From assembly GCA_002697255.1 (NCBI GenBank), contig NZUH01000009.1:1-38146 (forward strand): a DNA stretch of 38,146 nucleotides, read 5' to 3'. Numbering within the stretch: position 1 is the stretch's first letter; every line of letters begins with the position of its first letter. Under the pieces are notes generated by a model. The model was not told the DNA's origin. It saw only the letters and a list, made by a program, of their open reading frames with translations, and searched no databases. A program made the position numbers and the translations under genes. Origin of the DNA: Flavobacteriaceae bacterium. GTDB lineage: Bacteria > Bacteroidota > Bacteroidia > Flavobacteriales > Flavobacteriaceae. Below, in pieces: positions 26,789 through 36,998 of the stretch.

Positions 26789-27929
26789 ATGAATAAAAAC
26801 TCAAAGTTTTTAAATTGGGTGATAATTATTTTCTCATCAGTTATTATTTCTGCAATTTTATGGAATACTTATTTATTTGTGCAGAATTTTAAGCATGAAG
26901 AAAGAAATAAAATGGAATTGTGGTCATTGGCAACTAAAGAAGTAGCCAATATTCAAGGTGAAATATCAAATCTTAATCTTGAAATATTAAAAAAAAATAC
27001 TTCGACTCCAATGATAAAAGTTGATAACAACGGATCCATAGAAATAAATAATATTCCTGAATTAGATTTAAATGATACTATCAAAATTAATAGACTTATA
27101 GAAAAATATAAATCTGAAAATCAACCCATTGAAATAAATTTTGGTAAAGAAAAAATTTCAACACTATACTATGGAAATTCACCTTTATTAAATAAACTAA
27201 AATACTATCCTTCAGCTCTGCTGATTATAGCAGCTATTTTTGGCTTTATTGCATTTTTATTTTTCAAAAATTCAAAAATTGCAGAAATAAATAAATTATG
27301 GTCTGGGATGGCAAAAGAAACGGCGCATCAAATAGGAACTCCTTTAACTTCTCTTATGGGTTGGATTGAACTTTTAAAAAATAAGATTGATGATAAATCA
27401 TATTTAAATGAAATTGAAAAAGATATAGATAGGCTTAATATAATTTCTGAAAGATTTAGTAAAATTGGTTCCGATCCAAATCTTATCAAACTAGATATTT
27501 TAGAGGAAATCGATAAAATAGTAAATTACTTATCTTCTCGGATTAGTAAAAAAATACAATTAAAATTTATAAAGCCTAAATATAAAATTGATGCTAATAT
27601 AAATCCACAATTATTTGGTTGGTGTATTGAAAATTTAATAAAAAATAGTATTGACGCAATTAGAGATAAGGGAAATATAAATATCGATATAATAAAAGAT
27701 CAAAATAGAATTAACATATATATTACTGATGATGGAATAGGAGTTGACAAATCTTTACATAAAAAAATATTTAAACCTGGATTTACATCAAAAAAAAAGA
27801 GGTTGGGGATTAGGCTTGTCCTTAGCAAAAAGAATTATAGAAGATTATCATTCAGGTGAAATTAAGGTTTATAATTCAAGCCAAAATAATGGCACCATCA
27901 TGTTAATCAAACTAAACACAGTAAAATGA
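26789..27929 (+). CDS. Sensor histidine kinase with a one-base frameshift in the ATP-binding domain
   Basis: The first frame (to 27859) encodes two transmembrane segments (about 9-30 and 140-158), HisKA with His in AKETAHQIGTPLTS, the N box (ENLIKNSIDAI) and G1 (DDGIGVD). After GFTSKK it turns into RLGIRLVLSKK and stops. The +1 frame from the same point reads RGWGLGLSLAKRIIEDYHSG, the missing G2 box and end of the HATPase domain, stopping at 27929. The break is a run of nine A at 27790-27798; eight would restore a 379-residue kinase. It is either a real mutation or phase variant, or a homopolymer error. No response regulator adjoins it. Confidence 0.85.
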
Positions 27930-28896: not shown

Positions 28897-29328
28897 ATGC
28901 GTAAACTATTTTTTATCCTTTTATTTAATATAATATTTTATACTAATTGTAGTAAAAATATAAATAATTCACAATGTTCCTATTTATTAAATCTTGACAT
29001 ATACTATGAATTAAATTTAAATCTTCCTCAAAACTCTGAATTGAATTTTATAAGTAACTCTATATACATTCCTAATGTCGGAAATGGGGGTATTATTGTT
29101 ACTAATTCAGGAACTGGTTTTTTAGCCTGGGATGCAGCTGATCCCAATCGTACTAATTTACCATGTTCAGTTTTAACTATTTCAGGCCTAGAAGCAACAT
29201 CCAGTTGTGCAGAACAAAACACTTATAGTTTGATTACTGGACAATCTATAGGTGTAGCTCTTACTTGTTCTCTTAAGCCTTATAGAGTAGAATCAAGCGG
29301 GAATATATTAATAATCAGTAGCTATTAA
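28897..29328 (+). CDS. Rieske-fold-like lipoprotein lacking cluster ligands
   Basis: I start at the ATG at 28897, which gives a clean lipoprotein signal peptide with lipobox Cys18 (FYTNC); an upstream ATG at 28834 adds 21 residues that would bury it. The 143-residue protein has GGIIVTNSGTGFLAWDAADPNR (about 64-85), YSLITGQSIG and LKPYRVESSGNILII. These resemble flavobacterial outer-membrane-type lipoproteins with a Rieske-like fold. Where Rieske proteins have CPxH it has DPNR (82-85), and only one Cys (104) remains in the second motif. A [2Fe-2S] cluster is therefore unlikely. The function is unknown. The stop overlaps the receptor stop by 3-4 bases. Confidence 0.6.
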   Translation: MRKLFFILLFNIIFYTNCSKNINNSQCSYLLNLDIYYELNLNLPQNSELNFISNSIYIPNVGNGGIIVTNSGTGFLAWDAADPNRTNLPCSVLTISGLEATSSCAEQNTYSLITGQSIGVALTCSLKPYRVESSGNILIISSY

Positions 29329-31445
29329 AGCTTAAAAGTAATCCCTAATAAAAAATTTCTAAGGGCTTGTGGATAATATCCCGCGCCCTCAATGGTTGTT
29401 ATCATATTTGGTTCAGACCAAGTATCATCATAAGTATAATAATAACCATTTGACACATATTCTTTATTAAAAATATTGTTTATCATTGCCGTGAAAATTA
29501 TCTCCTTAAAGTGTTTTGATCTTTTAAATCTATAGATAAAATTAAGGTCAGTTGTTGAATATGAATTAAGCTTTGAAACAACTGATTCAGTATTACTCAT
29601 AAATTGTTCTCCCACAAACTTATTTAATATTGAAATATTTATATCTTCTTTAGGTCTAAAGTTGATACCAATTGACGAAACTAAATCTGGAGAAAATGAA
29701 ATATCTGTATCACCCCAATTGGTCACAACTCCATCAAAATTTGTTTTATAATCGATATTTTTATTTCTACTAAAACTAATATTAGATGATATATCTAAAT
29801 TATTAGTGGCTTTGAATATAGATTCCAACTCAATTCCTTTCCTGAAACTTTTACCACTATTCTTTCTAATCGGCGAACCAACATCGTCTAAAGCACCCGT
29901 CAAAACCAACTGGTTTTTATAATTCATGTAGTATAGGTTTGAGCTGAAATAAAACTTTTTAGTATTAAATTTCCATCCAAGCTCATAGTCAACCAATTCT
30001 TCTGGCTGTATATTTATATTATTCTCAAAATCACTACGTGTAGGTTCCCTATAAGCTCTTGACAAAGAAAAATATATTTTATTTATATCATTCAACGTGA
30101 AATTTAAACCAGCTTTAGGGTTAAAAAAGGAATAATGTTTATTTACGGTTAAATCTTCAATATTCGATGTGCTTCCAGAGGTTCTATAATCTATTTTTCT
30201 AAGTTGCAAATCAGCATAAATACCAATTCTTTCAGAAAACTGATAAATAGATTTTATAAAATTGCTAAAATCCTTTTTTAAACCATTCCCATTGTAGAAA
30301 AGGTCTGTAAATGCAATGTTACCTGAATTTTGTGACCATATAGTTTCACCATAGTGGTCACCATCATATTCACTATATGTTGAACCAAAAATTAAATTAT
30401 TTTTATTTTTAGAATAGTTTACATTATAATTAATCACATAAAACTGATTATCTAACCATTTTCTTGTAATAAAATCTTCACTTCCATTTTCATTATATTG
30501 CTCATAATAACCCTTTCCATTTGTAAGGTTTAATCCTAAATTAGAAATAAGATTACTTGAAATGGACTGGGTCCAATGAAATTGAAAATGATCTTGTTTA
30601 TAATTATCAACTTCATTTTCATGAAATTGTTCTTGACCGTTTAAATCATAATATATACCCGATGGATTATAAGTTCTATCATTTTCTAAAGTCTGTAAAT
30701 CAATACCATTCCATGCTTGATAAGTTATTTCGTGACCTCCAAAATTTAGAAACTTAAATAAACTTTTGTTTTTCCTATATGATAATTGAAAGAAATGGGA
30801 TTTTAAATCAGATGAAGCTCTATCTATATAACCATCTGAATCTATTTTTGAAATTCTTCCAGAAAATTCAAATGTATTGTTAAGTAAACCTGTACTGAAG
30901 CTGAAATTATTTTTTAGGGTATTAAAACTTCCTACTGAATTAGCACTTTCGAAGTACGGTTCTTCAGAAATCTTATCTGTTAAAATATTTATACTTGCAC
31001 CAAAAGCACTAGAACCATTTACAGAAGTTCCAATTCCTCTTTGCATTTGTAAATTTTCAACTGAGGATGAAAAATCTGGTAAATCAACCCAGAATGCACC
31101 AAGAGATTCAGCGTCATTGTATGGAATTCCATTAATGGTAACATTTGTTGATTGTGAGTTGATTCCTCTAATTCTAATACCTGTATATCCTATACCCGCT
31201 CCTGCATCAGAAGTAGTGACTACATTGGGTAGAAAATTTAATAAAATAGGAATGTCTTGACCTAAATTTCTTTTTGAAATTTCATCTTTTGAAACATTGT
31301 TAAATGCTATTGGAATATTTTCCTTTACCCTAACTGAAGATACAATTACCTCCTCTAGATTTTGAATTTCTAAGGAATCTATAACAGATTCCTGTGCGCT
31401 TAGCGTTATGCTATAGGCTAATAAAACAAACACAATTTTTTTCAT
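29325..31445 (-). CDS. TonB-dependent receptor, probable thiamine transporter
   Basis: Outer-membrane receptor of 706 residues: signal peptide to about residue 17, then a plug domain (IPILLNFLPNVVTTSDAGAGIGYTGIRIRGINSQSTNVTINGIPYND) and a beta-barrel ending in ...FLLGITFKL with a hydrophobic C terminus. It has no N-terminal carboxypeptidase-like domain. The TPP riboswitch directly upstream on the same strand is the reason for the thiamine assignment; this receptor type with a TPP switch is known from Bacteroidota. The substrate is inference. Nothing is cotranscribed downstream on its strand before the convergent lipoprotein gene. Confidence 0.88.
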   Translation of the reverse strand: MKKIVFVLLAYSITLSAQESVIDSLEIQNLEEVIVSSVRVKENIPIAFNNVSKDEISKRNLGQDIPILLNFLPNVVTTSDAGAGIGYTGIRIRGINSQSTNVTINGIPYNDAESLGAFWVDLPDFSSSVENLQMQRGIGTSVNGSSAFGASINILTDKISEEPYFESANSVGSFNTLKNNFSFSTGLLNNTFEFSGRISKIDSDGYIDRASSDLKSHFFQLSYRKNKSLFKFLNFGGHEITYQAWNGIDLQTLENDRTYNPSGIYYDLNGQEQFHENEVDNYKQDHFQFHWTQSISSNLISNLGLNLTNGKGYYEQYNENGSEDFITRKWLDNQFYVINYNVNYSKNKNNLIFGSTYSEYDGDHYGETIWSQNSGNIAFTDLFYNGNGLKKDFSNFIKSIYQFSERIGIYADLQLRKIDYRTSGSTSNIEDLTVNKHYSFFNPKAGLNFTLNDINKIYFSLSRAYREPTRSDFENNINIQPEELVDYELGWKFNTKKFYFSSNLYYMNYKNQLVLTGALDDVGSPIRKNSGKSFRKGIELESIFKATNNLDISSNISFSRNKNIDYKTNFDGVVTNWGDTDISFSPDLVSSIGINFRPKEDINISILNKFVGEQFMSNTESVVSKLNSYSTTDLNFIYRFKRSKHFKEIIFTAMINNIFNKEYVSNGYYYTYDDTWSEPNMITTIEGAGYYPQALRNFLLGITFKL

Positions 31446-31450
31446 GAAAT

Positions 31451-31490
31451 ATATAGTTTTAGTTATTCGGGATGTCTAAAAAAACTATAT
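31451..31490 (-). promoter_or_regulatory. 10-bp inverted repeat next to the receptor start (possible riboswitch expression platform)
   Basis: Arms at 31451-31460 (atatagtttt) and 31481-31490 (aaaactatat) are perfectly complementary, with a 20-nt loop. The stem lies between the TPP aptamer and the ATG at 31445 and ends 5 nt before the start codon, covering the likely ribosome landing site. It could switch translation, but no U-tract follows. Confidence 0.45.
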
Positions 31491-31497
31491 TGAAATT

Positions 31498-31570
31498 ATC
31501 AAGTTCCTAAACAGCATTACCTGTTCTAGGTTCAATGGGTATAATCTCAGCCTTTAAAGCACCCCTTATT
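31498..31570 (-). ncRNA. TPP riboswitch (THI element)
   Basis: On the minus strand the segment reads GGGGTGC, then GGCTGAGATTATACCC, ATTGAACCT and ACAGGTAATGCTGTTTAGGAA. These match the conserved blocks of the THI box: GGGGUGC, CUGAGA...ACCC, UUGAACCUG and GGAUAAUGCC..AGGGA. The pyrimidine-sensing CUGAGA and the pyrophosphate-sensing GAACC/AAUGC blocks are both present, with one or two changes. It lies 53-125 nt upstream of the TonB receptor ATG and should repress it when thiamine pyrophosphate is plentiful. Confidence 0.9.
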
Positions 31571-31606
31571 AATTAATATAAATTTACAAATTTTTAGTTA
31601 AATGAG

Positions 31607-31803
31607 TTATTGATTTTTAATTGGCCAATTATCATGCTGTGAGAAAACTCCGTTACTCCAATCAATTAATTCATCTTTACTTAACAAGCAATATTCTAAT
31701 ACTTTTTTTATTGATTTTACGTCTAAATTTTGTCCTATAAATACAAGTTCAATTTTTCTGTCACCAAGAATCCACTTAGTACAGTAACTGGAAGTTTTTT
31801 CAT
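31607..31803 (-). pseudogene. Remnant of a COG0523 (CobW/ZigA-type) GTPase with a large internal deletion
   Basis: Right after the ZnuD-like stop, the minus strand from the ATG at 31803 reads MKKLPVTVLSGFL, the N terminus of COG0523 zinc-chaperone GTPases just before the P-loop GAGKTT. The same DNA then continues, in another frame, as WILGDRKIELVFIGQNLD and on to CLLSKDELIDW and a stop at 31607-31609, the last ~50 residues of the CobW C-terminal domain. The P-loop, metal-binding CxCC and most of the protein (about 1 kb, judging from a family length near 400 residues) are missing. The two parts overlap around TGGATTCTTGG, which suggests deletion between short direct repeats. Confidence 0.8.
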
Positions 31804-31804
31804 A

Positions 31805-34240
31805 TTAATAGCTATAACTAACTGAAAGTAAAATATTTCTACCCATTTCGTGGGTAAAATATCTTAGCCTATTTAAATAATTCTTGTAAAGGTTATTAAA
31901 TAAGTTTTCAATCCTTAAATTGATTTTATAATTACCACCATTTTCTGCTTTTAATCCAATAGATGCTGCGAAGTTTAATAAGTGATATGCACTTGGTGGT
32001 GTGCTAGTATCTAAGAGCTGATATACTTGTTCAGTTGGAATAAAAACCTCAAAGTTATTATTTGGATACTCATTTTGCTTGAACACATATTCACTTTCTA
32101 GTGAAACATTTAAATTATTCAACTTTGGAAAATTGTAAGAAATTTGATTTTTGAGATTTACCGGAGGCATATTTATTAAAGGTTTATCGTTAGCCCTTTC
32201 ATAACCTTTGATGATTGAAAATTGATGTCCAACAAAAAAATTAGTTAAGTACTGTCTGTCATATTTTACATCAAATCCGAAAAGTTTAGCGTCTTCCTGC
32301 TTGTATTCCCAGTATGGGAAAACTCCAGCAATAGTCGGCATTAAATCAACTGGGATCATATAAATAAAATCATCAACAATATTAGCGAAAGTATTTACCG
32401 TTAAACTTGATTTTTCATTTGAAGAATCATAGGTCAAAGAAAAATTATGCCCAACTTCTGAGTTGAAGCTTAGGTCACCAATTTCAATTCTAGCGGATGA
32501 GTGATGTAAACCTTCGCTAAATAATTCAGATGGGTTTGGTTTTCTTGACGACATTGAGTAATTAATGAAAATGTTTTCACTTTCACTGATTGAATATCTT
32601 GCACCAAGGTTAGATGAAATATTATGAAAATCGAATTTAGGATTGGTCAGGGTATTAAGTCCTAGATCTTCAACTACAAATTCAGGGAATAGCTCATTAT
32701 AATTTCTTACTTCCCAAAGAGAAGTTCTGTAATATTTATATGCATCGATATGTGAAAAATCGTATCTAATGCCAGCTTCTATAAACCAATTTTCAGAAAA
32801 GTTCATATCATAAACGGAATATAAACTAAAGTCATATTTTTTATAATCTGGAATAATTCTTTTAACTCCGGTTGAAGGATCTGGAAAATTCTTTTGGTAT
32901 CGAGCTGAAATTCCCGCTTTCAAATTTGAATTATTCTCAAATTTTGACTCAAGGTCAAAAGCAAGAGAATGTGTTTGAAGATTTAAGTCCAGTGCTGGTT
33001 TAGTTCTGTCTCCTCTTCTAATATCATATTCTCTTCTGTCATTTGATTGAAAATCATATCTCATAGAAAGCTTTCCAAAATCAAAGGTTTTAAATCCTCT
33101 TAACTTGAATAAGTTGTGACTAATTTTTTGTCTTGGTATATTAATATCATAAGAAAAGTCTTCAATTATATGAGGCACTTCATTTTCAATGGCATTAATA
33201 ATATCAATTGCTGTATGTGCGTGTGATGATCTCAGTATACCCAAGTAATTACTAAATAAGGAATAGTAAACATCAAAGCCATGATCAATTCTATTGAGAC
33301 CAGCTTTTAAGGATAAATTATGTTCAGAAAAACCGGTGTTTGTCATCACATAATTTGGAGTTTCAAAATCACCCATTCGCTTTAAAGTTCCTTGAAATCT
33401 ATAGTACCATCCGCTACTATAGGTTTTCGTATAATCAGTTGAAATTCCACCACCTCTTCCATTTGATTGAATATTAGTGGTAACATTTCCATAAATACTA
33501 TCTAGTAATTTTTCTTTTGATGTTTCAGCGATAATAACTCCACCAACTGCATCACCCGCATACTTTAATGAACTAGCACCTTTTATAATTGAAATTTTAT
33601 CAATGGAGTTTATATCAATACTTGGTGCATGTTCAATGCCCCATTCTTGGTCTTCAAGTCTAACTCCGTTATTAATAAGAATAACTCGACTACTATGTAA
33701 ACCGTTAATTACTGGCTTTGATAAATAATTCCCAGAATTTAGACTACTAACACCCGTTACGGTTTTTAAAACTTCACCTAAAGTTCTACTGTTATAATCT
33801 TCAAGCACCTGCTTGGAAATTTTATTTTCGAAAAGAGTTCTAGAATTATTTCTATTATTAGAAATAACAATAATTTCTTCAAGCTCATTAAGATGATGCT
33901 CAAGTCTTATTTTTTTGAAAGTGTCCTTGTTTACATTAAGTGATGTAGTTATATCCTTACATTCTTCATGTGATATATTTAGGGTATAATTATCAGTACA
34001 GATATTTTCAAAAACTACATTACCATCAAGATCTGTAAACCCCTCTTTTTGTAATTCCTTAATTAAAACAACGGCATTACTTAGGGGAGTTCCATCATGT
34101 AAATCAACAACCTCTATGGATAAACTGTTATCACAATTTTGAGCATAAATATTACTATAAATAACAGTAATTACAAAGTAAAAAATGAGTGCCAATTTAG
34201 TTTGTAAATTGGCACTCCATTTAGTAAAAATATTCTTCAT
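31805..34240 (-). CDS. TonB-dependent receptor, ZnuD-like (probable zinc/metal uptake)
   Basis: A receptor of 811 residues: signal sequence to about 33, a carboxypeptidase-regulatory-like domain (about 40-115), then a plug (about 120-240) with INNGVRLEDQEWGIEHAPSIDI, and a barrel ending in MGRNILLSVSYSY. The barrel has His-rich spots, RSSHAHTAIDI and SELFSEGLHHSSARIEIGD; the latter resembles a conserved stretch of ZnuD-type receptors. Operon partners are an acidic lipoprotein (5 bp upstream), a small His/Cys exported protein and a COG0523 scar (1 bp downstream). A metal substrate, most likely zinc, is inferred from these. Confidence 0.85.
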   Translation of the reverse strand: MKNIFTKWSANLQTKLALIFYFVITVIYSNIYAQNCDNSLSIEVVDLHDGTPLSNAVVLIKELQKEGFTDLDGNVVFENICTDNYTLNISHEECKDITTSLNVNKDTFKKIRLEHHLNELEEIIVISNNRNNSRTLFENKISKQVLEDYNSRTLGEVLKTVTGVSSLNSGNYLSKPVINGLHSSRVILINNGVRLEDQEWGIEHAPSIDINSIDKISIIKGASSLKYAGDAVGGVIIAETSKEKLLDSIYGNVTTNIQSNGRGGGISTDYTKTYSSGWYYRFQGTLKRMGDFETPNYVMTNTGFSEHNLSLKAGLNRIDHGFDVYYSLFSNYLGILRSSHAHTAIDIINAIENEVPHIIEDFSYDINIPRQKISHNLFKLRGFKTFDFGKLSMRYDFQSNDRREYDIRRGDRTKPALDLNLQTHSLAFDLESKFENNSNLKAGISARYQKNFPDPSTGVKRIIPDYKKYDFSLYSVYDMNFSENWFIEAGIRYDFSHIDAYKYYRTSLWEVRNYNELFPEFVVEDLGLNTLTNPKFDFHNISSNLGARYSISESENIFINYSMSSRKPNPSELFSEGLHHSSARIEIGDLSFNSEVGHNFSLTYDSSNEKSSLTVNTFANIVDDFIYMIPVDLMPTIAGVFPYWEYKQEDAKLFGFDVKYDRQYLTNFFVGHQFSIIKGYERANDKPLINMPPVNLKNQISYNFPKLNNLNVSLESEYVFKQNEYPNNNFEVFIPTEQVYQLLDTSTPPSAYHLLNFAASIGLKAENGGNYKINLRIENLFNNLYKNYLNRLRYFTHEMGRNILLSVSYSY

Positions 34241-34245
34241 ACAAA

Positions 34246-34806
34246 TTACTCTATAGTAACAGGAAATGAAGTTTGAATATCAATAGAACCTCCAGCAGTA
34301 TCTAAGCCGTCATTAGGCTTTGTAGGTTCATGAACCAATGTAATAGTTAAGTTGCCAGATCCTGTATCACCAGCATTTTGAGGAGCAAGGACAAAGTTAA
34401 TTCCGACTGGATTTCCCATAGAATCAAAAGGTGCAGTATATACAAATTGTAAAGGTAAACCGTCACTCGCACTGAAAAACACTTGATGCTCATCAGCTTC
34501 TTCAAGGATTTCTTCAGTTATGTCTTCTGCAGGATCTTCCATTTCATTTAACCACTCAATTGAACCTGAGTATGAAGTAGCTGAGCTTAACGGACCTGAA
34601 ACTGTAACAACTGGTTCATTTGGGCCGTCTCCGTCTAAGTCTTGCGTTTGAAGTACTACAGTTCCTGATCCATCACTAGCTAACAGAGTCACTGTCATAG
34701 TTGTAATTACTTCCTCTTCGTTGATTGGCTCTGGAGTATCATCGTCATCATCACAAGAGAAGTATAAAAAAGGGATTGCCAATAAGGCGTATTTGAAAAT
34801 TTTCAT
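34246..34806 (-). CDS. Acidic lipoprotein of the TonB-receptor-associated Bacteroidota family
   Basis: A 186-residue predicted lipoprotein: signal peptide with lipobox FSC18, followed by five Asp (19-23). The rest is a beta-rich domain with LDGDGPNEPVVTVSGPLSSATSYSGSIEWLNE, then EEADEHQVFF and a C-terminal DTAGGSIDIQTSFPVTIE. It is rich in Asp and Glu. I recognise it as a Bacteroidota family often annotated as 'type 1 periplasmic binding fold' and found beside TonB receptors; that link is from memory. It may capture metal for the receptor 5 bp downstream. Confidence 0.65.
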   Translation of the reverse strand: MKIFKYALLAIPFLYFSCDDDDDTPEPINEEEVITTMTVTLLASDGSGTVVLQTQDLDGDGPNEPVVTVSGPLSSATSYSGSIEWLNEMEDPAEDITEEILEEADEHQVFFSASDGLPLQFVYTAPFDSMGNPVGINFVLAPQNAGDTGSGNLTITLVHEPTKPNDGLDTAGGSIDIQTSFPVTIE

Positions 34807-34879: not shown

Positions 34880-35179
34880 TCAAACAACTGGCGGAGCTCT
34901 TAAATTAAAAGTTCTTAAGTTGTTTGACTTTAGGTATCCAACTAGATCAATGACTAATTCATCTATCGAAACCAAATTATATTTTAAATCTGAATAACTT
35001 ACAAAACTATTATCTGTATTGTTTAGAATGAAACATAAAGAACACTCAATTTCAGCTTTATGGAAATGTACTTCAGTTTCAGTGCAAGCTTTATGCTCCT
35101 CAAAAATGTGATGAGCAAAACTGATAATACTTGGAAGAATTAAAAGTATGGAAAGAATAAAACTGTAAAATTTTTTCAC
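34880..35179 (-). CDS. Small exported His/Cys-rich protein, possible metal binder
   Basis: A 99-residue protein starting at a GTG (35179). The signal peptide ends near residue 22 (ISFAHH). The mature part begins HHIFEEHKACTETEVHFHKAEIECSLC, with five His and three Cys in about 27 residues, and ends NLRAPPVV. The Arg-Ala-Pro-Pro end is seen in small exported proteins encoded before TonB receptors in Bacteroidota. No formal family is recognised with certainty. Position and composition suggest metal binding. It is 18 bp after the kinase gene stop, with its own possible promoter. Confidence 0.7.
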   Translation of the reverse strand: MKKFYSFILSILLILPSIISFAHHIFEEHKACTETEVHFHKAEIECSLCFILNNTDNSFVSYSDLKYNLVSIDELVIDLVGYLKSNNLRTFNLRAPPVV

Positions 35180-35197: not shown

Positions 35198-35755
35198 TTA
35201 TATTATACTATTTATACAACTTATTGCTTTTATTAATCTTTCAATTCTAGTGCCATTTATTACTTTGAACGGAAGATTATTTTTAATTAATTCATTCTTG
35301 AAAATTTGAAATGATTTCTGTCTTTCATTTGGCTTATCCCTTAAATCGTCTTTTTTCCAAGGAATATCAATATCCGTTAATAGATATAGATCATAATTGT
35401 TATTTAAAGCATATTTTTCTAATAGCGGATCACAAATTCCACCATAATAGTTTTTAGAATAAACCATTGTTTCAAAAAGGTTTGTGTCACATATCAAAAG
35501 CGAATCTGATTTTTTTGCATATTGGTTTTCTAGATTCATTTGACCAACAGCAATTGGCATTATATCACTCGGCTCACAAACTCTTTTATCCTTATCCCAT
35601 ACTTTTTGTAAATATTCGCGAGCATATTCTGGTACCCAATCAACACTATAGTGTTTTGATAATTCGATTGCTAAAGTTGTTTTCCCTGATGATTCTGGTC
35701 CGTAGAGAACAACCTTTTTACATTTTGAATCTATTTGTTTAAGCTTTTCTTCCAT
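35198..35755 (-). CDS. NadR-type ribosylnicotinamide kinase-like ATPase (AAA_28)
   Basis: A 185-residue P-loop kinase with GPESSGKTTLA (about 20-30), matching the ESSGK loop of the NadR kinase domain. VPEYAREYL, DTNLFETMVYSKNYYG and LYLLTDIDIPWKKDDLRDKP follow the same family. The HTH and adenylyltransferase domains of full NadR are absent. The start at 35755 leaves the P-loop near residue 20; a longer frame to 35905 runs inside pnuC and is rejected. It overlaps the end of pnuC by 25 bp. Pairing with PnuC suggests phosphorylation of nicotinamide riboside; thiamine is the alternative. Confidence 0.8.
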   Translation of the reverse strand: MEEKLKQIDSKCKKVVLYGPESSGKTTLAIELSKHYSVDWVPEYAREYLQKVWDKDKRVCEPSDIMPIAVGQMNLENQYAKKSDSLLICDTNLFETMVYSKNYYGGICDPLLEKYALNNNYDLYLLTDIDIPWKKDDLRDKPNERQKSFQIFKNELIKNNLPFKVINGTRIERLIKAISCINSII

Positions 35756-36378
35756 TCTAAATAACCTTGAATTGCTAAGATTGTAAAAATAATATATTGT
35801 AAAGATAGCATACCTAATCCTCTGTAAGCGTAAAGTGGAACAGTAATTATGTCTGCAATTATCCAAAAAATCCAGCTTTCTAATTTTTTGTTTGCCATTA
35901 ACCACATGGCTACAAAAAATACACCTGAAGTTAGTATATCAATATAATTAGGAATTCCTATTTTATCATAAACAGTACATTGAAAAAGTGGACATATAAT
36001 TGTAAAGAAATACACTAAATATGTAATACTAATAGTTAATAAAAAAAGAAACAGGGTTAAACCAATCTCGTTTTTAGATATGCTACTTATCTCTAATAAA
36101 TATTTATCTTTATCTTTTCTTGACCAATTCCACCAACCATAAATACTCATTGAAGAATAATAAATATTCATCATCATATCCCCAAAAAATTGAGCCTTAT
36201 ACAAAATATAGACTGTAATTACAGTACATATAATCCCAGTAGGATAGACAAGAATATTCTCCTTTTTAGCATAAATTACACTGATTATTCCAAAAGAAAA
36301 TGCAATAAATTCTAGCACTATATCAAGATTAGAATAGGAGGAATAAGAATCTAGAAAAAAATTATATAGTTCATTCAT
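35731..36378 (-). CDS. pnuC: PnuC-family vitamin transporter
   Basis: A 215-residue protein with about seven transmembrane segments. MMMNIYYSSMSIYGWWNWSRKDKD (about 69-92) is the conserved family core and WIFWIIADIITVPLYAYRG (about 168-186) the second. PnuC proteins move nicotinamide riboside by facilitated diffusion, with trapping by a kinase such as the downstream NadR-like one; PnuT/PnuX relatives take thiamine or riboflavin. There is no riboswitch directly upstream. The start overlaps the stop of the phosphopantetheinyl transferase by one base. Confidence 0.88.
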   Translation of the reverse strand: MNELYNFFLDSYSSYSNLDIVLEFIAFSFGIISVIYAKKENILVYPTGIICTVITVYILYKAQFFGDMMMNIYYSSMSIYGWWNWSRKDKDKYLLEISSISKNEIGLTLFLFLLTISITYLVYFFTIICPLFQCTVYDKIGIPNYIDILTSGVFFVAMWLMANKKLESWIFWIIADIITVPLYAYRGLGMLSLQYIIFTILAIQGYLEWKKSLNK

Positions 36379-36998
36379 CAGTTTTTAATTACATATGCTA
36401 AGGTATAATTTTTAGAAATTTTAAAATGTGTGTCGAATGAATAAATCTCTTCATTATTTATATACCAGCTTTTTGTATAATTATCCTTTTGATTAAAAGG
36501 AATTACGATTATATTTTTTCTGAAATCTATCCCGCTATTTTCAACTGATTTAAAAATACTCTCTTTAATATTCCAATATATAAGTGCAGTTTTTTTATTT
36601 AAAACTTGGGGGTAAATTAATTCAGTTTCCAGAAACTTGTCGGTTATTTTTAATATTTTATCACCTACAACTTCAATATCTATTCCAACCTTATGATCAC
36701 TAATGATTAGCGCTGCATAATTTCCTGAGTGGGTAATAGAGAGATTTTTATCATCAATAAGAATAGGTCTACCTAATTCATTATATTTTAAATTCTGATC
36801 ATAAACTGAAATTTCTTTAAGAATACTCCTAATCGCTAGGAATTGTTTTTTATGAATTTCTGATTTTCTGTCAGCTAATAATTTTACCGAATCTTTATCA
36901 AGTATGACCCCTGATCTAAGATCTTCAAGATCTTCCGTAATTTCCCAGATAATTAATCTAGTTTTTGATAATAAATTTAAATCCTCAATAATTGGCAT
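36378..36998 (-). CDS. 4'-phosphopantetheinyl transferase superfamily protein
   Basis: A 206-residue Sfp-type enzyme that puts the CoA-derived arm onto carrier proteins. The key motifs are VGIDIEVVGDKI (GxDxE, magnesium binding) and YWNIKESIFKS (WxxKEAxxK-like). LSITHSGNYAALII is the CoA/acidic-loop region before them. The target carrier is not in the window. It is cotranscribed with pnuC (TGATG overlap). Confidence 0.9.
   Translation of the reverse strand: MPIIEDLNLLSKTRLIIWEITEDLEDLRSGVILDKDSVKLLADRKSEIHKKQFLAIRSILKEISVYDQNLKYNELGRPILIDDKNLSITHSGNYAALIISDHKVGIDIEVVGDKILKITDKFLETELIYPQVLNKKTALIYWNIKESIFKSVENSGIDFRKNIIVIPFNQKDNYTKSWYINNEEIYSFDTHFKISKNYTLAYVIKN

Follow-up and report, generated by a model that had tools for sequence, protein, structure and literature searches.

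A probable deletion remnant of a COG0523 GTPase gene beside a TonB-dependent receptor gene in a marine flavobacterium

The window (the whole 38,146-nucleotide stretch of flavobacterial DNA analysed here) carries on its minus strand, at positions 31803-31607, the first 13 codons and the last 52 codons plus stop of a COG0523 GTPase of approximately 400 amino acids, joined out of frame. Directly upstream lies an intact gene for a TonB-dependent receptor, the stop codon of which is separated from the ATG of the remnant by one base, and on the 3′ side the site is bounded by a TPP-riboswitch-like leader (31487-31576) that precedes a second TonB-dependent receptor gene (29325-31445). The features of this region are given below, where G004 and G019, like G010, denote relatives that carry the gene intact, and G000 will denote the window's own genome.

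31487..31576 (-): TPP-riboswitch-like leader; RF00059, 50.3 bits, E=4.8e-9, model positions 1-105 of 105
31607..31765 (-): C-terminal remnant with the final 52 codons, covering the end of CobW_C, and the stop codon; tail match E=1.2e-20
31764..31774 (-): deletion join TGGATTCTTGG; 1,007 bases missing relative to G004 and 1,006 relative to G019
31765..31803 (-): N-terminal remnant, 13 codons, ATG at 31803, MKKLPVTVLSGFL; ends just before the P-loop
31805..34240 (-): TonB-dependent receptor, intact, 811 aa, CarbopepD_reg_2 domain; directly upstream of the scar
34246..34806 (-): 186-aa predicted lipoprotein (by eye from its N terminus); upstream of the receptor, kept in place in relatives
34880..35179 (-): small protein of 99 aa, His/Cys-containing, its N terminus signal-like by eye; position conserved

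The frame opened by the ATG at 31803 reads MKKLPVTVLSGFL followed by TGGATTCTTGG and terminates after 22 codons, its N-terminal piece agreeing in all 13 residues with the start of the intact gene at the same place in G010. The tail frame, GDRKIELVFIGQNLDVKSIKKVLEYCLLSKDELIDWSNGVFSQHDNWPIKNQ (GDRKIELVFIG...DNWPIKNQ), spans 31765-31610, with its stop codon at 31609-31607. In a search with the intact G004 protein against the 21 genomes of the genus, own genome included, the tail was matched at 79% identity with the E value listed above; it is 86% identical to G004, 71% to G010 and 69% to G019, and against Pfam CobW_C it reaches 22.6 bits at a cut-off of 22. The P-loop, CXCC and NKxD motifs are absent from the remnant, as all three fall in the missing stretch. 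With the P-loop, the CXCC motif and the rest of the GTPase domain gone, and with the two ends out of frame, no working GTPase would be produced from the remnant, and as the whole gene is still present in close relatives the scar may be read as the trace of a gene loss. We regard the segment 31803-31607 as very probably a defunct COG0523 GTPase gene from which the middle has been deleted. The first-pass annotation had proposed such a scar, with an N terminus of the type preceding a P-loop placed out of frame with the last ~50 residues, and this was borne out in the form of the 13 and 52 codons described here, both of which fit the two ends of one protein; the comparison with relatives that it had suggested located the gene intact behind the same receptor in three of the 17 genomes that can be judged at this site.

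The intact gene, of 400-402 codons, occupies the site in G004, G010 and G019, flanked as in the window by the receptor and the TPP-riboswitch-like leader, and the G004 protein shares 90% identity with that of G019 and likewise with that of G010. All three display an invariant P-loop (GFLGAGKTT), the CXCC motif as GCICCT at residues 71-76 and the NKxD motif as NKVD at residues 185-188, while the G004 protein scores 190.6 bits with PF02492 (CobW nucleotide-binding) and 86.7 bits with PF07683 (CobW_C). Passages of PMC2770081 describe COG0523 proteins as G3E GTPases, a subset of which is tied to zinc homeostasis, and the CXCC motif as conserved in all COG0523 members. Like ZigA (NF038288, a COG0523/G3E GTPase), the intact G004 protein combines the P-loop, CXCC, NKxD and CobW_C domain, and ZigA is its best NCBIfam model (559.6 bits, residues 6-384); unlike ZigA, it remains below the curated cut-off of 600 bits, and the window's gene is destroyed. 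The only matches of the intact protein to solved structures are to YjiA (2 distinct sequences). The lost gene is thus designated a ZigA-like, probable zinc metallochaperone, a zinc role being likely in view of the ZigA-like match and the adjoining receptor.

The receptor itself is probably a metal-uptake gene, and it may have formed an operon with the GTPase gene. The arrangement resembles the ZnuD system in that a TonB-dependent receptor stands beside a COG0523 gene and matches the ZnuD model in part; it differs in that the receptor scores 77.6 bits against a ZnuD (NF038289) cut-off of 950, while a hemin-receptor model gives the higher score of 126.6 bits, itself below its cut-off of 316.85. 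Of the metal-uptake operon with a ZnuD-like receptor that had been annotated initially, the placement of the receptor beside a COG0523 gene therefore stands, whereas the score lies far under the ZnuD cut-off and zinc is assigned by association. A ZnuA-family binding protein was found in 0 of the 21 genus genomes, and a Fur family protein, without assignment to Zur, in 15 of them. For the 186-aa predicted lipoprotein no Pfam or NCBIfam match was obtained at E 0.001. This protein (L154, L159) is 98% identical in G020 and 96% identical in G011, in the latter beside a second copy of 73%, and the neighbouring genes are more diverged, a pattern from which recent allele exchange of its gene appears likely. 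The receptor gene is frame-broken in G020 (L159 10781-13217), as is a copy in G005 that lies at a contig end (L155 11849-13871).

Gene-loss scars are known that result from deletion between short matching sequences. The missing stretch is established by comparison with the intact relatives; the window-versus-G010 row (719 bases) is left out of the missing-length figures, its left part having been paired with bases unrelated to it. The two break regions have no more than 4-5 bases in common within any of the three intact genes, the longest shared words being TTTT, TTTGG and TGGT. On this ground a direct repeat of 11 bp, TGGATTCTTGG, at both ends was rejected, even though the alignment to G004 pairs the 3′-side GATTTTGG with GATTCTTGG at the cost of a one-base gap. 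Short direct repeats of this type had been claimed at first, with the readability of the join in two frames (SGFL and WIL) taken as a sign of them, and neither point held, WIL being a by-product of the new frame. Along with the P-loop and the CXCC motif, a single deletion of ~1.0 kb would have taken out what remained of the GTPase domain and the larger part of CobW_C; the ends, now out of frame, were probably brought together at a few matching bases, by slippage or by end joining. As in the known deletion scars between short matching sequences, both ends are left, the middle is gone and the frame is broken; we see no difference between the window's scar and such ordinary examples.

The receptor was searched in 60 genomes, own genome (G000) included, and the sequence downstream of it was read in 21 loci, 16 of them base by base. 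The genus set comprises 21 genomes, own included, and 17 of these could be judged at the GTPase site; G001 and G002, which gave no receptor match, and G014 and G017, which gave weak receptor matches only, stand outside this judgement. The gene is intact in three of the 17 (G004, G010, G019), scarred in two (G000, G016) and absent from twelve (G003, G005, G006, G007, G008, G009, G011, G012, G013, G015, G018, G020), in which 30-53 bp extend from the receptor stop codon (included) to the leader core. The G004 protein, when searched against the 21 genomes, recovered the three intact genes, the window's tail, both ends of the G016 scar and a distant relative in four genomes. The G016 scar retains the first 40 and the last 22-26 codons, lacks 1,016 bases and meets a stop right after its join. 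As both of its break points differ from those of the window, two separate events are indicated, at least one further species of the genus having undergone a break of its own in the GTPase gene. Similarity of the G016 join, TTGTTAAC, to the two ends as they stand in relatives (GTTATTGTAAAT in G004, TGTTTGTTAACC in G010) makes it possible that a longer match, of 7-8 bases, existed in the ancestor of G016; words shared inside single intact genes measure 4-5 bases. Outside the genus, a scan of species genomes, in which own-genome records may be left out, found 93 relatives, of which 80 were kept. Among the stretches of these (up to 6 kb per side) only three genus members (L065-L067) have this receptor (73-85%) directly before the gene, and the stretches of ten further relatives include a receptor of 23-27% identity.

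Two other explanations of the scar itself were weighed. In favour of a short gene or RNA in its own right are the tail frame being open over 65 codons and the 22-codon frame beginning one base past the receptor stop codon; against this, both pieces match the ends of one protein that is intact here in three relatives, the content of the G016 scar differs, twelve relatives have nothing at the site, and the Rfam matches in 31400-31830 are limited to the TPP-like leader and a microRNA hit (E=0.98). We consider this explanation practically negligible, and it was set aside on the Rfam result, the G016 scar and the twelve clean relatives. More serious is the proposal that the deletion was produced by whole-genome amplification or assembly, the chromosome still having the intact gene. 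The three relatives with the intact gene are isolates AG-894-C03, AG-461-G08 and AG-917-J15, whose titles resemble those of GORG single-cell genomes, and from such titles the window's genome may also be an amplified single-cell genome. Another GORG cell is named AG-893-E15 in a passage of PMC12416821. Most amplification chimeras are joined at short matches, of 2-21 bases, according to a passage of PMC1855051, and on benchmark cultures the single-cell workflow had 1.5 misassemblies per 100 kb and 3.0 indels per 100 kb (PMC11247762), both of which would favour an artefact, as would a frameshift in an A-rich run 4 kb from the scar that may be a sequence error. The remnants, moreover, are without clear decay: sought in the tail by dN/dS and by residues unseen in 50 intact genes (50 of the 80 kept loci were taken), none was clearly evident. 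The dN/dS of the tail is 0.11 versus G004, 0.38 versus G019 and 0.16 versus G010, as compared to 0.21, 0.06 and 0.15 for pairs of intact genus genes and 0.40 and 0.11 for pairs with L068, and its 4 unseen residues are at the top end of what leave-one-out gives for intact genes, 4 of the 50 having at least 4. A tail that is undecayed and about as constrained as a living gene implies either a recent deletion or an artefact, so that the initial description of the gene as recently lost fits this tail, while the same fact would fit an artefact.

The evidence against an artefact comes in part from the chimeras themselves, as in the same passage of PMC1855051 just 11 of 475 mapped chimeras were in direct orientation with segments less than 10 kb apart, and in part from the relatives, twelve of which are without the gene at this site altogether. 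A background set of 297 ORFs from the window and 15 syntenic stretches was also assembled, 281 of them with a homologue in another stretch. Away from stretch ends, 2630 of 2652 gene-by-genome comparisons were full length (at least 90% covered), under a rule that misses breaks near gene ends such as the kinase frameshift at ~27.8 kb; the other 22 come from the GTPase genes of G000 and G016, from the receptor gene of G020 and that of G005, and from a kinase gene that differs in length between G010 and G000. Broken GTPase copies amount to 2 of 5 detectable, in different places, as compared to 2 of about 292 other ORFs (p=0.0013), or to 3 of 292 (p=0.0022) if the kinase frameshift is included. Once the window's own scar, which had prompted the comparison, is excluded, the corresponding figures are 1 of 4 versus 2 of 292 (p=0.040) and versus 3 of 292 (p=0.053), so that this comparison, which is post hoc, becomes borderline. 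We have retained our estimate despite the weaker test, as it rests also on the rarity of direct chimeras, and infer a recent loss rather than an artefact, the latter being improbable though of real weight.

The wider history of the site is more tentative. On an RpoB tree of 20 rows (G009 gave no match, G003 and G007 are partial, and several nodes are weak), 11 losses are required if the gene was ancestral, with neither regain nor exchange, or 10 if G007 and G018, which are sisters on the receptor tree, are treated as such; two of these losses are visible as scars. The two scarred losses (G000, G016) are the best supported; the other losses are likely, though left uncounted. That a ZigA-like chaperone has been lost repeatedly at a fixed site, with its receptor mostly kept, within a marine flavobacterial genus of small genomes is advanced as a possibility that we rate as somewhat less than even. 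The gene may instead not be ancestral at the site, several arrivals or an exchange of presence and absence alleles between species accounting for the pattern and only G000 and G016 representing losses. Twelve of the 17 judged genomes being without the gene would agree with this, as would the fewer steps (five gains and two losses by hand count, as compared to 11 losses) and the disagreement between receptor and RpoB trees. The tree conflict, combined with the uneven identity of the window's 186-aa upstream protein (52-77% in genomes other than G020 and beyond the closer of the two G011 copies), makes allele exchange at the locus likely. A recent arrival is opposed by the three intact genes forming one clade (SH-aLRT 99 in a quick tree of 27 rows of the 80 loci) at one site and showing synonymous differences of 49-71% over the 52 tail codons; as a whole we judge a non-ancestral gene less likely than not.

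The scar represents gene loss of an ordinary kind, to which recurrence adds moderate interest. A probable zinc chaperone would have been lost while its receptor neighbour was kept, and intact, scarred and clean states of the site occur within one genus, a series that allows one to ask when a COG0523 chaperone is dispensable. If repeated loss is true, the need for zinc delivery would appear to shift from one ocean population to another, even among close relatives. Literature searches on COG0523 with TonB-dependent receptors, Bacteroidetes and zinc found no paper; those on COG0523, zinc and loss, and on zinc, marine flavobacteria, gene loss and metallochaperones, gave no title on this case among the matches listed.

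Elsewhere in the window's assembly, a search of G000 with the intact protein found the scar only and no second copy, and two PF02492 matches are present, one of the MeaB type and the other below cut-off; as the assembly is 84% complete, a copy may lie elsewhere in the genome. A distant COG0523-like GTPase (28-29% identity; L161-L164) is encoded at another place in G016, G002, G003 and G011, its gene in G016 being broken by a frameshift; it has a P-loop, and SCVLSS where CXCC would stand.

A histidine kinase gene at ~27765-27926 (+) is split near its 3′ end by a frameshift in an A-rich run, and is one open frame in the ten relatives that show the gene, so that either a sequence error or a real break may be involved. 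The score of the leader downstream of the scar lies under the RF00059 gathering score of 54.3, and no Rfam match at gathering score was obtained in the window or in the loci of five relatives (L004, L006, L009, L012, L015); in 35700-36800 no TPP-like leader turned up. Upstream of the metal genes, a PnuC-family transporter and an AAA_28/NadR-like kinase are encoded (35198-36378). Together with the leader and the TonB-dependent receptor gene at 29325-31445, these look like a thiamine-uptake set with the receptor genes in between, for which OMthi, pnuT and tnr3, as they appear in a passage of PMC5613172, serve as the thiamine comparison.
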